Below are positions 36,929-64,000 of a DNA stretch of 64,000 bases, one piece after another (within the stretch, counting starts at the first letter, position 1; every line of letters starts with the position of its first letter). The position numbers and the translations under genes were made by a program. Origin of the DNA: a virus. A model generated the notes under the pieces. The model saw only the letters and a program-made list of their open reading frames with translations. It was not told where the DNA came from and made no database searches. The stretch spans positions 32,504-96,503 of the IMG/VR virus record IMGVR_UViG_3300040758_000047, one strand, 5' to 3'.

Positions 36929-37330
36929 ATGCAAACGAAATCTGAGTTATTGAAGGAACTGGATCAGCTGGAAGCTGATATATCAGCCATCAAAAAAAAG
37001 TGGGCTGCTGGCTTTAGTGCGCGCTACCTCTGGGCTGCTGGCGTTAGTATGCGCTACCTCTGGGCTGCTGGCGCTAATGTGCGCAACCTCTGGGCTGCTG
37101 GCGTTAGTACGCGCGACCTCTTGGCCGCTGGCGCTAATGTGCGCAACCTCTGGGCTGCTGGCGCTAGTACGCGCGACCTCTGGGCTGCTGGCGCTAGTAC
37201 GCGCGACCTCTTGGCTGCTGGCGTTAGTACGCGCGACCTCTGGGCTGCTGGCGTTAGTGCGCGCGACCTCTTGGCTGCTGGCGTTAGTACGCGCGCCCTG
37301 CGCAAAATGGTCGAGGCGTTGCCAGAGTGA
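36929..37330 (+). CDS. Decapeptide-repeat protein, copy B
   Basis: 133 residues: the same head as copy A (MQTKSELLKELDQLEADISA), ten 10-residue units of the xAAGVSxRDL type and tail RKMVEALPE. Differences from copy A lie at the variable positions (AAGANVRNL, AAGFSARYL). Inverted relative to 23985-24356, so recombination between the copies would invert the 12.5 kb between them, including the divergent control region. Function unknown. Confidence 0.75.
   Translation: MQTKSELLKELDQLEADISAIKKKWAAGFSARYLWAAGVSMRYLWAAGANVRNLWAAGVSTRDLLAAGANVRNLWAAGASTRDLWAAGASTRDLLAAGVSTRDLWAAGVSARDLLAAGVSTRALRKMVEALPE
37001..37300. repeat. 30-bp coding repeats
   Basis: Ten imperfect tandem copies of a 30-bp unit inside the decapeptide-repeat gene. 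Confidence 0.85.
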
Positions 37331-37390
37331 AGGGCAAACTTGTACAATCAACTGTTTTTACCACACAGAAATAAAGTCGGTTTAACGGGT

Positions 37391-39997: not shown

Positions 39998-40773
39998 GTT
40001 ATTGGAAAGTTCTGACGAGTGAGTTCCGGCCACCACTACAAGGCGGGAAGCCGCTTTGCGATGGCAAAACGTGGCCTGTGGAGCTACCGACAGTGCCGCT
40101 GGACCGCGGCTGGCACTTCTGCCGCGACATTCAGACCGCATTAAAAAGCGCTGGTTTTTGGCGAACTGGGCACCCAAACGCAGTTATACTCGTTGAGCCT
40201 CACGGCGACATTATCGAACGGGTCGATAAATTGCGAGCGGCGAGCCTCACACTGAAACGGCTGGCAACGGACAAAGAAATCTACAGCGCCCTAACCGCGT
40301 TCTCAACGCTTTTCGGAGAACATCGGGCAGCGATGGCTGAAGAACAATGGCTCTGGTGGCAGGCCCTTGCCCATCCCACATGGGATCGTGAGGCCGTTAT
40401 TGAAGGGTTGACCATTGCGCTTCGTGCCCGGTCGCTGCATTGGACAATCAAAGAATACCCTTCAGAAAAGGCTGCGTGGGATGCGTGGGCGTGGACTGCG
40501 TGGGCTGCGCGGGATGCGTGGGATGCGTGGGATGAGCGGTGGGCGTGGGATGCGGCGCGGGCTTTGCGGGATGCGGTGGCTACGCGGGATGCGTGGGGTG
40601 CTGGGGATGCGTGGGCTGCGCTCACACTTCAATTCGCAGCACGCAGTGGTTGGATCAGTCATAGCCACGATCTTCTGACAGTTGGTATTCGGGATGCCTA
40701 CCGTCACGGGCTTTTCGTTGCATTACCAACCGGCCCAAATGAACTTGGTTTTGTAATGGAGCCGCCAAAATGA
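39994..40773 (+). CDS. Protein with Trp-Asp-Ala repeats
   Basis: 259 residues. An N-terminal globular domain (about 1-160), a repeat region with AWDAW-type units (residues about 163-210, [19 protein letters not shown]) coded by 9-bp GGGATGCGT repeats, and a short C-terminal domain. WDA-type helices may form a charged coiled surface. Function unknown. Confidence 0.65.
40483..40622. repeat. 9-bp imperfect coding repeats
   Basis: GGGATGCGT-type units in the Trp-rich gene. Confidence 0.7.
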
Positions 40774-45138: not shown

Positions 45139-45325
45139 TCGTAAGCAACCGCGCGGCTGAAGCCGGCGGCTTTGTAACTAAGCCATGCTAAACAGCAGCA
45201 CAACTCGCTACGTTCGGCCCGCTTACAGTGGCCCTGCCAGCTATTACCCTGGCAGCGTTGGTATCCGCGTGCGCCGCGCTATCCCTCCGCATGGCTGAAG
45301 CCAGCGGTTTCTCGCGCAAAGGAGT
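45139..45325 (-). mobile_element. Minimal TnpB-derived relic
   Basis: Contains the C-terminal tail of a TnpB on the minus strand: HADTNAARVIAGRATVSGPN ending ASCAAV (45188-45277), with the RuvC-III Asp but no upstream body. Both ends carry GGCTGAAGCC(G/A)GCGG. The first 127 bp are identical to 63874-64000. It lies between recT and its nuclease partner without breaking either. It may be a deletion derivative or a solo 3' end. Confidence 0.65.
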
Positions 45326-51091: not shown

Positions 51092-51446
51092 AGAGTACCA
51101 CAAACTCCCAATCAATTTGCCCGTTGTCCACCATTCCCAACAGACTCCAGACCTTCTCCCCGAGGTCGATCCCGGCTCCATTGGTCGGACGCCCCGTCAT
51201 GTCAGTTCCACTCTCTGCTTGCGGGCGCTGGCCATCAAAGACATAGGCGTCATCGTTGATATTCCATGGACCGACATCAAGGACAATCGCCAGGGAGGAC
51301 TTGGTGTTTAGGGGATTAGTCAACTGGATGAAGCAACCGAGGGCTTTGGTGGATGGAAGTGCCACGAAGGGGACAACAGTGTCGATCACGTAGCCGCTGG
51401 CTGTGCGCTGTCCCACTAACCCTTCGCGGGTAGCTTTGACAATCAC
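51090..51446 (-). CDS. RlpA-like double-psi beta-barrel protein
   Basis: 118 residues. LDVGPWNINDDAYVFDG and GRPTNGAGIDLGEKVWSLLG match the DPBB/RlpA-3D fold, with the conserved Asp in GAGIDLG. These act as murein hydrolases or wall-binding proteins, so it may be the lysin or a tail-lysis part. Its stop TAG is made by a parS-like site. Confidence 0.6.
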   Translation of the reverse strand: MIVKATREGLVGQRTASGYVIDTVVPFVALPSTKALGCFIQLTNPLNTKSSLAIVLDVGPWNINDDAYVFDGQRPQAESGTDMTGRPTNGAGIDLGEKVWSLLGMVDNGQIDWEFVVL

Positions 51447-51649
51447 GGCGTCTTTATGCCGTTCTTGGCCCCGACCAAGGCTTTATTAGCGCCGATGATT
51501 TGCAGCACGTTGTAGAGCCAAGTATAGAACGGGTTACCCATCGGCTGCGGGGTGGGCATCGAGTGGATTACCCACGAGTAGATCCACAGCGCGACAGGCC
51601 CAGAGAACCAACCCCAGTGCTGCTGGAAGAATTGAACTATCTGCGTCAT
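51443..51649 (-). CDS. Small membrane protein, holin candidate
   Basis: 68 residues with one or two spans (GWFSGPVALWIYSWVIHSM) and a basic end. It is coupled to the DPBB gene (ATGA). Position and size suit a holin. Not proven. Confidence 0.45.
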   Translation of the reverse strand: MTQIVQFFQQHWGWFSGPVALWIYSWVIHSMPTPQPMGNPFYTWLYNVLQIIGANKALVGAKNGIKTP

Positions 51650-51833: not shown

Positions 51834-53648
51834 CTAGGACACCTGAGAGATCAGCCAGACATCCGTACATAGATTTGCGTCGAGGATGTAGGCGTAGGGA
51901 ATCGAGGCGTACCCTCGCTTGCCCCAAGCCGTTCCCCACGAGTTCTGCATGATGAAGCTCTGCGGCGGAATGTCGGCCAAGCCATTGTCCGTGTAGCCTA
52001 CCAGACGCACGCAATGCCCCCCTAATTGGTTCTCGCTCGCTCCTGGCATAGGTACGTCGCCGCTCGCCGCCACGGCATCCGACTCGAACGAATCGTACAC
52101 TAAGATACCGATCACCAGCCCGTGCGCTGGATCGGTTCGCACCGCGCGGGCTAGTGATGTAGTCGAGTTGCCATAGGCCAGAGCCGTCTTCAGATCCGTC
52201 AAGTCCTGATTGACACTCTGCGCGCCCAACGCAAGGAACTGCAAGGCGTCGGCATAGCACTTGTCCGGCGGCTGGACGGCAAACTGCGAAATGTCGTAAG
52301 GCCACTCCGTCTCAGAGCAAGCGCCTTGAGTTTGTACGGCAGCGATACCGTCTGGGATTGTAGCCCCAGCGTCTTGCGGGACGGTCCCCTCGATCACGCG
52401 GCTGCAATAATACACAAAAAGACGACTCCGCATTGTGAGCGGTTCTCCTTGAGCCAAAGCCTGAGCCTCCAGTTCTTCGCAGGTTCCATTGGCAGTGCAA
52501 GAGTTCCCGGAGATCAGTATAGAACCACTGCGCCTAGTAATCAGTATGGAATTGGGGACGGAGGCGCAGAACACTTCGCCCTTGTAATAATCGGGTTTGA
52601 ACGTCTCCCGCGGTTTTAGGTTGAGATGATCGGTTTCCCATTGAGTCAGGTATCGTTCAGACGAACGAGAAACAATCGGAACACCGTCATTCCGCACGGC
52701 TGGCGCCCTAAGTTCAGCCCTATAAATTGAGGATCGATTACCACATTTGAGCAGCAGTTCCTGCAAGTCATCGATCATCCCATCGCTCGTGCTAAAAAAC
52801 TGATGCGGGCGCTTCCCGGTGTGGGTTTGGTCACCAAAAAATGATAGAAACAGTTTGATTTGGCGTTGTGATGCAAAGCGGATAATCCCCGGCACTCTTT
52901 TGGCTGATGCCGATCTGCCATTGCATCCACACGACTCACGGAACCAGTTAGCCAACTCAGCACTGAAGAACGTCCATTTACGCGGAGCGCTCTCGTAAAT
53001 GCCCAATCGCTGCGCCAACGAAGCGATGATGTTATACCGCCCGTCGTTGAAGCAGCAGAATCCGCCAACCCTATTCTCTTTGGCTTCGGAATCGGAAATC
53101 CATCCATCTGAGATAACCAGCGCGGCAAGGGATATCAGATCATCCCCACTCAGTTCGTATTTGCCGATCCGAAGGCCCCTCAAGTCTATTCCGGTCCATC
53201 CTCGCGGAGCAGCCAAAAGGCCCGCGATGGAAGGGATGCTATCGGCAGTCTCAAATCCGAAACCTGCACTTTTGCGAGGGCGAATGTACATGCGGTGATT
53301 CGGCGTTACCGCGCAATCGAGTGAACGATGGTCGGCAAAATACATCGGGCCTTCATAGACGTACCGAAAAAGGGCGGTCGGGTGCTGATACTCAAATGCA
53401 TGGGTTAACGGATTTACTGTGGCAAGAGAATCGTGCCCATCGTATGCGTTCCACGGCTTCCATCCGCTCTCTGTGAGCACTTCGGTTTTATCATCATGGC
53501 ATCCAAGCGAGCCCTGATCGACTACCGGAGGTTGCAAATTCCGCATGTCGAGGTCTTGAGGCAGCGTGAAGTGCGGAGCGTCGAAGACTCGGTACCGCGC
53601 CTTTTTAGCGCTCGGTGTGGGGATGCAGCCGTAAATGTGCTTTGACAT
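51834..53648 (-). CDS. Papain-family cysteine protease interrupted by an intein
   Basis: 604 residues, ATG at 53648. The extein halves join as QPPVVDQGSLG / SCTANGTCEELEAQ, rebuilding the QGxxGSCxA motif with the catalytic Cys as the second residue after the splice junction. The His is in GGHCVRLVGY and the Asn in MQNSWGTAWGKRGY. The spliced protein is about 271 residues, a typical C1A peptidase domain. No clear pro-region or signal peptide is seen. The protease cannot be active until splicing, because the intein splits the active site. Confidence 0.88.
   Translation of the reverse strand: MSKHIYGCIPTPSAKKARYRVFDAPHFTLPQDLDMRNLQPPVVDQGSLGCHDDKTEVLTESGWKPWNAYDGHDSLATVNPLTHAFEYQHPTALFRYVYEGPMYFADHRSLDCAVTPNHRMYIRPRKSAGFGFETADSIPSIAGLLAAPRGWTGIDLRGLRIGKYELSGDDLISLAALVISDGWISDSEAKENRVGGFCCFNDGRYNIIASLAQRLGIYESAPRKWTFFSAELANWFRESCGCNGRSASAKRVPGIIRFASQRQIKLFLSFFGDQTHTGKRPHQFFSTSDGMIDDLQELLLKCGNRSSIYRAELRAPAVRNDGVPIVSRSSERYLTQWETDHLNLKPRETFKPDYYKGEVFCASVPNSILITRRSGSILISGNSCTANGTCEELEAQALAQGEPLTMRSRLFVYYCSRVIEGTVPQDAGATIPDGIAAVQTQGACSETEWPYDISQFAVQPPDKCYADALQFLALGAQSVNQDLTDLKTALAYGNSTTSLARAVRTDPAHGLVIGILVYDSFESDAVAASGDVPMPGASENQLGGHCVRLVGYTDNGLADIPPQSFIMQNSWGTAWGKRGYASIPYAYILDANLCTDVWLISQVS
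52503..53501 (-). mobile_element. Intein with a degenerate LAGLIDADG region
   Basis: 333 residues (codons 50-382). It begins Cys-His-Asp-Asp and ends SILISGN followed by Ser. Block B contains AVTPNHRMYI (TxxH). SLAALVISDGWISD resembles a LAGLIDADG motif. Block F is VFCASVPNSILITRRSGS. The penultimate residue is Gly rather than His, as in many phage inteins. The insertion lies one residue before the catalytic Cys. Confidence 0.85.
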
Positions 53649-54409: not shown

Positions 54410-54453
54410 CTCCTCTACGAGATCTTTCCCAGCGCTGCCTCGATCTCCAGTTC
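54410..54453. repeat. Left 44-bp direct repeat
   Basis: Copy of the 3' end of the gene at 55000 (coding for ELEIEAALGKIS and stop, plus GAGGAG); one mismatch with 54995-55038. Confidence 0.85.
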
Positions 54454-54505
54454 GAAGTTTCGGCGGCTAGCATTTCGGTTCTCCCTCCCGATGTTTGGGG
54501 AATTT

Positions 54506-54986
54506 ACTTGAGTACAGCAGTTCATTCTCCGACTGCCCTTAAAACGTTGATAATAAGCGTGTCACGAACAACCTGCAAGTCATCCGTTATCAAATGGGCC
54601 ATCTTCACCATCAGGTCAGGCTCGCGTAATCCTGGCACATAAACGATGACAAGTTTGCCCGCGCCACAGGCCCAACCAGCTTCCAAGCTGGCAGACACAC
54701 CGCATGGCATCACGTATACACACGCGTCGCAGGCTTTCAGTGCTCCCATATCTCGATTGAATCCACGTTCAGCGCATGGATGATCCAACCCAGCCAAGTA
54801 CTTGGGAACATCACTAGGCCAATCCAGCCATGCTGGATCGACCTCAGACCAATGAAAACCATCGGAGTCCATGAAGTCATAGACGGTATGACCATCTTCG
54901 CGAAGTGCCGCCACAACAGACGGCTGAAACTTGTTCCGCCAAGAACTAGCCACGTAAACGTTCATATGTCTCCGCTGTACTCAAGT
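54506..54986 (-). mobile_element. Deoxyribosyltransferase cassette with inverted ends
   Basis: ACTTGAGTACAGC (54506-54518) and GCTGTACTCAAGT (54974-54986) are perfect 13-bp inverted repeats closely flanking one gene, inside the 44-bp direct repeats. Confidence 0.55.
54522..54965 (-). CDS. Nucleoside 2-deoxyribosyltransferase-like protein
   Basis: 147 residues. The pattern MNVYVASSWRNKFQPSVVAA, DGHTVYDFMDSDGFHWSEVD, and CGVSASLEAGWACGAGKLVI matches the nucleoside 2-deoxyribosyltransferase/YtoQ-like Rossmann-type fold, with the ASLEAGWA helix carrying the usual Glu. It would exchange or hydrolyse bases on deoxyribonucleosides, useful for nucleotide salvage or DNA base modification. It is a cassette inserted downstream of the dockerin-like gene. 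Confidence 0.65.
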   Translation of the reverse strand: MNVYVASSWRNKFQPSVVAALREDGHTVYDFMDSDGFHWSEVDPAWLDWPSDVPKYLAGLDHPCAERGFNRDMGALKACDACVYVMPCGVSASLEAGWACGAGKLVIVYVPGLREPDLMVKMAHLITDDLQVVRDTLIINVLRAVGE

Positions 54987-54994
54987 CGCGGACA

Positions 54995-55038
54995 CTCCTC
55001 TACGAGATCTTTCCGAGCGCTGCCTCGATCTCCAGTTC
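54995..55038. repeat. Right 44-bp direct repeat
   Basis: The original 3' end of the dockerin-like gene and its following AGGAG. Confidence 0.85.
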
Positions 55039-55631: not shown

Positions 55632-55829
55632 TTACTCCGTTGTTCCTCGGGCGGCGTTGCCGTCTGCCGCCTGCTTGCGTAACCGCTGGTTCTCCACGAG
55701 TTCATCCGCCAGTTGGGATGCGAGAGATTGAACACGGGCGCGAAGGCGCTCGATCTCCCGCTCGGCGTCTTGAAGCTCAGGCGGGGGCGGCTTTACGGTG
55801 AGTCCTTCATTCTGATTAATTACTCCCAT
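55632..55829 (-). CDS. Short coiled-coil protein, downstream duplicate
   Basis: 65 residues (MGVINQNEGLTVKPPPPELQ then EREIERLRARVQSLASQLAD). The coil and its DNA are 90% identical over 142 bp to the gene at 56227-56652. It overlaps the methyltransferase stop by ten bases. Confidence 0.5.
   Translation of the reverse strand: MGVINQNEGLTVKPPPPELQDAEREIERLRARVQSLASQLADELVENQRLRKQAADGNAARGTTE
55654..55795. repeat. 142-bp repeat, left copy
   Basis: About 90% identical to 56402-56543, same strand. Confidence 0.85.
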
Positions 55830-56230: not shown

Positions 56231-56652
56231 TTGTTACCCTCGTGCGGTCCCGCCTTCAACACATTTTCAGCTCTATCTACGTTTTCCAAATACTGTTTGA
56301 TTCTCTTCCTTATTCTCCGGCGAAGCCCAGGAACCAATGGATTACCTTGACCAAACTCGGCACAAACGATGTTTGTTAACCTTCTAACTAGTACGTCATT
56401 CGCGTTGCCGTCTGCCGCCTGCTTGCGTAACCGCTGGTTCTCCACGCGTTCATCCGCTAGTTGGGATGCGAGAGATGCGACGTGGGCACGAAGACGTTCA
56501 ATCTCCCGCTCGGCCTCTTGAAGCTCAGGCGCGGGCGCCTTTATGGTATCATCTTCAGGTAATCTACGAAGAGACTCATAATACCCATGACAAATGCACC
56601 TACACTTTAATGATCCTTCTTCAGTAATACAATTACACAAAGCACAATTCAT
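56227..56652 (-). CDS. Coiled-coil protein with an N-terminal zinc motif
   Basis: 141 residues; ATG after GGAGAG. CALCNCITEEGSLKCRCIC may bind zinc. A coiled coil follows (EREIERLRAHVASLASQLAD), then a basic end. ATGA overlap with the methyltransferase. Confidence 0.55.
   Translation of the reverse strand: MNCALCNCITEEGSLKCRCICHGYYESLRRLPEDDTIKAPAPELQEAEREIERLRAHVASLASQLADERVENQRLRKQAADGNANDVLVRRLTNIVCAEFGQGNPLVPGLRRRIRKRIKQYLENVDRAENVLKAGPHEGNK
56402..56543. repeat. 142-bp repeat, right copy
   Basis: Matches 55654-55795. Confidence 0.85.
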
Positions 56653-63873: not shown

Positions 63874-64000
63874 TCGTAAGCAACCGCGCGGCTGAAGCCG
63901 GCGGCTTTGTAACTAAGCCATGCTAAACAGCAGCACAACTCGCTACGTTCGGCCCGCTTACAGTGGCCCTGCCAGCTATTACCCTGGCAGCGTTGGTATC
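63874..64000. repeat. Copy of the TnpB 3' end, cut by the window edge
   Basis: Identical over 127 bp to 45139-45265. Confidence 0.9.
63923..64000 (-). CDS. TnpB C-terminal end, partial
   Basis: On the minus strand the frame reads DTNAARVIAGRATVSGPNVA and ends SCAAV with a stop at 63923, starting at the window edge in the RuvC-III motif. The rest of the gene may lie beyond the window; or this is another relic. Confidence 0.6.
   Translation of the reverse strand, partial: DTNAARVIAGRATVSGPNVASCAAV

Follow-up and report, generated by a model that had tools for sequence, protein, structure and literature searches.

A minus-strand gene in the window analysed here (the final 64,000 nucleotides of a virus record of 96.5 kb) encodes a papain-family protease that is interrupted by an intein one residue ahead of its catalytic Cys. 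We consider it very likely that the gene encodes a C1A protease with a class 1-like LAGLIDADG intein that was formerly a homing element, and that splicing is needed for protease activity and is probably fast. This position had been proposed from the letters of the DNA, and comparison with homologues and solved structures supported the exact junction.

In our reading of the window, the minus-strand frame 53672-51834 was open across 612 codons. The first ATG of the frame is probably not the start. The ATG at 53648 was preferred: its Met aligns with the first residue of the intein-free phage relative L005, a protein of 271 aa. The gene thus defined (51834-53648, minus strand) has 604 codons, and its predicted spliced protein of 271 aa has exactly the length of L005, the closest intein-free phage relative among the matches listed. 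Within the 612-codon frame the intein corresponds to residues 58-390, exactly 333 codons starting with Cys and ending in Gly-Asn. Gly(-1) and Ser(+1) flank the intein and the catalytic Cys is at +2. Joining the flanks gave the papain motif DQGSLG-SCTANG, as predicted for the excision of 333 residues, and the predicted His in GGHC and Asn in QNSWG were both present in the C-extein. The third-position GC content of the intein was 0.55 versus 0.67 in both exteins, which weakly fits an ancestry separate from the exteins. Three further contigs, 99.99-100% identical to the window, all carry the identical gene, and therefore it is not an assembly error. The features of the gene are as follows.

53502..53648, minus strand: N-extein, 49 residues counted from the probable start codon, from alignment with the intein-free relatives L005, L006, L010 and others
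53502-53519, minus strand: DQGSLG, the C-terminal end of the N-extein, with the oxyanion Gln
52503..53501, minus strand: intein, 333 residues, Cys1 to Asn333, from the Sebata alignment, profile matches and sharp ends against homologues
53463..53501, minus strand: block A, CHDDKTEVLTESG, from alignment with intein relatives
53283..53351, minus strand: block B, with TPNH and invariant Thr66 and His69, from the same alignment
53097..53138, minus strand: first LAGLIDADG motif, LISLAALVISDGWI, near-intact, from the same alignment
52815..52859, minus strand: second LAGLIDADG motif, IKLFLSFFGDQTHTG, degenerate, from the same alignment
52503..52580, minus strand: blocks F and G, GEVFCASVPNSILITRRSG...LISGN, from the same alignment
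51834..52502, minus strand: C-extein, the protease domain, beginning with Ser(+1) and the catalytic Cys(+2) and ending at the stop codon, from Peptidase_C1, 3OIS and the structure model
52011-52022, minus strand: GGHC with the protease His, within the C-extein
51933-51947, minus strand: QNSWG with the protease Asn, within the C-extein

Sequence comparison and structure models confirmed the insert as an intein. Insert residues 1-333 aligned end to end with the intein of the mycobacteriophage Sebata nucleotidyltransferase (full-sequence E 5e-21 in a small database), and residues 4-333 with the intein of the Bobi DNA methylase; genes for these two enzymes are described intein carriers in mycobacteriophages (PMC5050341). 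With the complete protein as tblastn query, phage inteins were matched among 50,697 phage records, at E values down to 9e-22. At the sequence level, the intein resemblance of the insert is far beyond chance. A profile built from the intein relatives found the solved inteins PI-PkoII, AceL NrdHF, V-ATPase inteins, and MJ0781. The structure model of the intein was of low confidence (mean pLDDT 52), and its 34 best structural matches were all inteins or related Hint domains. In viral contigs, relatives of the intein sit in other host proteins (named by eye), among which are a beta-like RNA polymerase subunit and, with two inteins, a portal-like protein. A portal-like phage protein from IMG/VR (L048:3986-5494) contained two inteins just four residues apart, one full-length with Ile as its first residue (class 3-like) and the other a 145-aa mini-intein.

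Alignment with these relatives made blocks A, B, F, and G all identifiable, including blocks A and F, for which the original prediction had proposed such a check. T6, L9, G13, T66, H69, R323, G332, and N333 were invariant. All splicing residues are there: the nucleophile Cys1 of CHDDKTEVLTESG, aligned with that of the relatives; the Thr-x-x-His of block B, as TPNH; and the predicted GN-Ser end, found as Gly332-Asn333 followed by Ser+1. With class definitions following PMC5050341, the intein is class 1-like by its residues, and the insertion is in frame, with 181 uninterrupted homologues that match at the junction as intein-free alleles. Class 3 was ruled out, as Cys1 is present and the Trp-Cys-Thr triplet of blocks B/F/G is absent, with Ser instead of Thr ahead of the penultimate residue and no Trp at the block B position. 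A His is usual at the penultimate position of class 1 inteins but can be replaced, in phage inteins for example by Gly. The penultimate Gly is, by analogy, no defect: in the phage RDF intein a penultimate Gly gives essentially complete splicing, and its change to His slows splicing strongly (PMC5050341). Because the RDF intein splices completely with this residue, fast splicing is the default expectation, and splicing of the protease intein is probably fast and constitutive.

Sequence and model confirmed the exteins, which come from a tailed phage, as a cysteine protease of the xylellain type within the C1A (papain) family. The C-extein, which forms the C-terminal 222 residues, matched Pfam Peptidase_C1 (1.2e-8) and the structurally solved Xylella fastidiosa protease xylellain (3OIS; by sequence, E 7e-25), and 3OIS was also the best structural match of the protease-domain model (fold, 3.3e-19). 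DQGSLG/SCTANG, GGHC, and QNSWG lined up with 30 relatives, with the catalytic Gln, Cys, His, and Asn all kept. Relatives of the protease are very common, with at least 449 confirmed in viral contigs and at least 548 in bacterial and archaeal genomes. Xylellain-type C1A peptidases have been reported as transferred into tailed phages, in an account that does not mention inteins (PMC10380794). The nearest cellular relatives among the matches listed were in two Bryobacterales (Acidobacteriota) genomes, isolates bog_406 and fen_298, with protease identities of 62% and 57%, respectively, and one of them is adjoined by a small protein related to window positions 51443-51649. A phage host among the Bryobacterales is a reasonable guess. 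Some of the relatives' protease genes lie near tail or lysis-like genes, with an amidase-like gene near one locus and a patatin-like gene near another (all read by eye). The gene in the window had itself been placed near a lysis-like block; its neighbours are indeed small and membrane-protein-like, but they had no family match above the cut-off.

We compared 186 distinct homologous frames from phages and bacteria. A pattern search scored 180 of them as uninterrupted, and inspection by eye added L125; of the other five, three were copies or fragments of the same intein-bearing gene and two were truncated. The site was empty in 181 of 181 distinct homologues with an intact junction, against which the ends of the intein are sharp. 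Across the 186 frames and a junction scan, the occupied site was found only in one virus lineage, represented by four near-identical contigs. The scan, which took Ser as TCN codons, found no diverged occupied sites in the viral collection by the junction patterns GN/HN-SCTAN and GN/HN-SCWAF, the remaining hits being chance matches. Eighteen further matches in 150 genomes of the order, some at loci already counted among the 186 frames, lay in frames too short for a 333-residue intein. The intein was also used to search 396 genomes from the phylum to which a Bryobacterales relative belongs, and gave two remote matches, both in unrelated proteins. The same query found no further copy in the whole virus record, only its own. 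The large terminase (748 aa, with a gapped family match) was considered as a second intein carrier and rejected, as inspection revealed no intein motifs.

We infer that the intein splices, and the proposed steps would run as follows. Once translation is done, the intein would fold, Cys1 would attack the carbonyl of Gly(-1), and Ser(+1) would take the N-extein through transesterification. Asn333 would then cyclise, and Gly and Ser would be left joined by an ordinary peptide bond, which would restore DQGSLGSC and let the central helix begin with the catalytic Cys. The model of the precursor was confident in the protease part alone, and there the central helix starts at the catalytic Cys, two residues past the intein. 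Before splicing, the precursor should be inactive because the intein would hold the N-extein with its oxyanion Gln apart from the catalytic Cys; that protease activity depends on splicing can soundly be inferred. The intein would have arrived at this site as a homing element, its endonuclease later decaying.

The LAGLIDADG-like segment of the original prediction comprises two motifs rather than one, the first recognisable and near-intact, the second degenerate. The second motif, IKLFLSFFGDQTHTG, has two residues fewer in its helix than the relatives, and GDQ replaces GDG; the Pfam match of the intein to LAGLIDADG_3 was below the cut-off. With these two residues and the Gly gone, homing is probably impaired, its activity weakened or lost and the endonuclease in decay. 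Splicing, by contrast, would have been kept, since its loss would disable the protease.

The degenerate second motif would also suit a splicing-dead pseudo-intein, that is, an intein by descent that no longer splices or only cleaves and leaves the protease gene broken. The intein-bearing copies form one near-identical lineage, too little diverged to show selection on splicing, and one annotated intein, Arth_1007, is reported as splicing-defective under a title that calls it a pseudogene (PMC3196547). The splicing residues are nevertheless complete, the frame is open, and the protease His, Asn, and Cys are intact, so that we regard loss of splicing as unlikely. Still less probable is a regulated zymogen, in which conditional splicing (redox, metal, or temperature) times protease activation during infection. 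The intein does lie directly before the catalytic Cys, and its Cys1 and a Cys of block F may be near Cys+2; bacterial DnaB inteins are described as conditional splicers (PMC6195587, PMC7360933, PMC8557812). However, the sequence carries no sign of regulation, every other homologue examined manages without an intein, and rapid splicing was seen for the phage inteins that one published study tested (PMC5050341), which leaves the earlier suggestion that splicing could delay proteolysis unsupported. We give equally little credence to a natural intein-based zymogen in which conditional splicing, for instance under redox control, engages the protease's catalytic Cys(+2) beside Ser+1 and turns the protease on at a fixed point of the infection. 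A free-standing endonuclease gene inserted here, or a self-splicing RNA intron with a fortuitous read-through, can be practically dismissed despite the LAGLIDADG-like motifs within the insert, as both insert ends match inteins exactly, the frame is continuous over both junctions, the end-to-end intein alignment contradicts it, and no RNA intron was seen in the insert, where no Rfam family matched.

The preferred reading, a C1A protease with a splicing class 1-like intein, combines features of known systems. The intein resembles the mycobacteriophage LAGLIDADG inteins (Sebata, Bobi) in length class, blocks, Cys1, and Gly-Asn end, at about 27% identity, and like mycobacteriophage inteins it is sited at a conserved active-site motif; its penultimate Gly is shared with the RDF intein of Bethlehem (PMC5050341). 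Placement in active-site motifs is the rule for inteins, phages included (PMC5050341), in agreement with the view that the conserved-motif position is typical. The mycobacteriophage inteins differ in that their hosts are DNA- or nucleotide-related enzymes, whereas here the host is a C1A protease and the second LAGLIDADG motif is degenerate. In sequence, fold, and catalytic residues the exteins agree with C1A peptidases of the xylellain type (3OIS), among them those that tailed phages carry (PMC10380794). Unlike these peptidases, the protease is intein-interrupted here, which was the case in none of the 181 homologues examined.

ClpP and Lon are ATP-dependent proteases of cells and organelles. 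Chloroplast ClpP is an intein host, and Lon is given as one in the abbreviation list of the same paper (PMC5784728); protease hosts are rare, as had been stated, but have precedents. The present gene is like ClpP and Lon in having an intein in a proteolytic enzyme, and unlike them its host is a phage papain-fold cysteine protease with the catalytic Cys at +2. Within the open-access literature searched, no papain-family protease turned up as an intein host. This host family appears to be new, while the kind of element and the mechanism are already known, and the understanding of inteins is unchanged. Papain-family cysteine proteases are apparently added to the list of intein host proteins, with a clean natural case in which splicing would have to come before the catalytic Cys site forms. 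Splicing, protease activity, and the effect of a splicing block should all be readable on one small protein.

PHROGs matches in the window included a major head protein, portal, large terminase, DnaB helicase, RecT-like annealing protein, and transposase, and the virus is therefore a tailed phage. An exact 127-nt repeat (45139-45265 / 63874-64000), with its second copy terminating the contig, is probably an assembler k-mer overlap, and therefore the join past 64000 is ambiguous. A nucleoside deoxyribosyltransferase-like gene at 54522-54965 lies between the arms of a perfect 12-bp inverted repeat (54507-54518 / 54974-54985) and also between the copies of a 44-bp direct repeat (54410-54453 / 54995-55038), and the region 54410-55038 looks like a small inserted cargo gene. 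A 146-bp duplication of 90% identity (55654-55799 / 56402-56547) lies in two small genes that adjoin a short methylase-like frame. A 30-nt tandem repeat array at 36941-37359, with about ten register shifts, was located within a coding frame, and a 9-nt repeat was present at 40479-40632.
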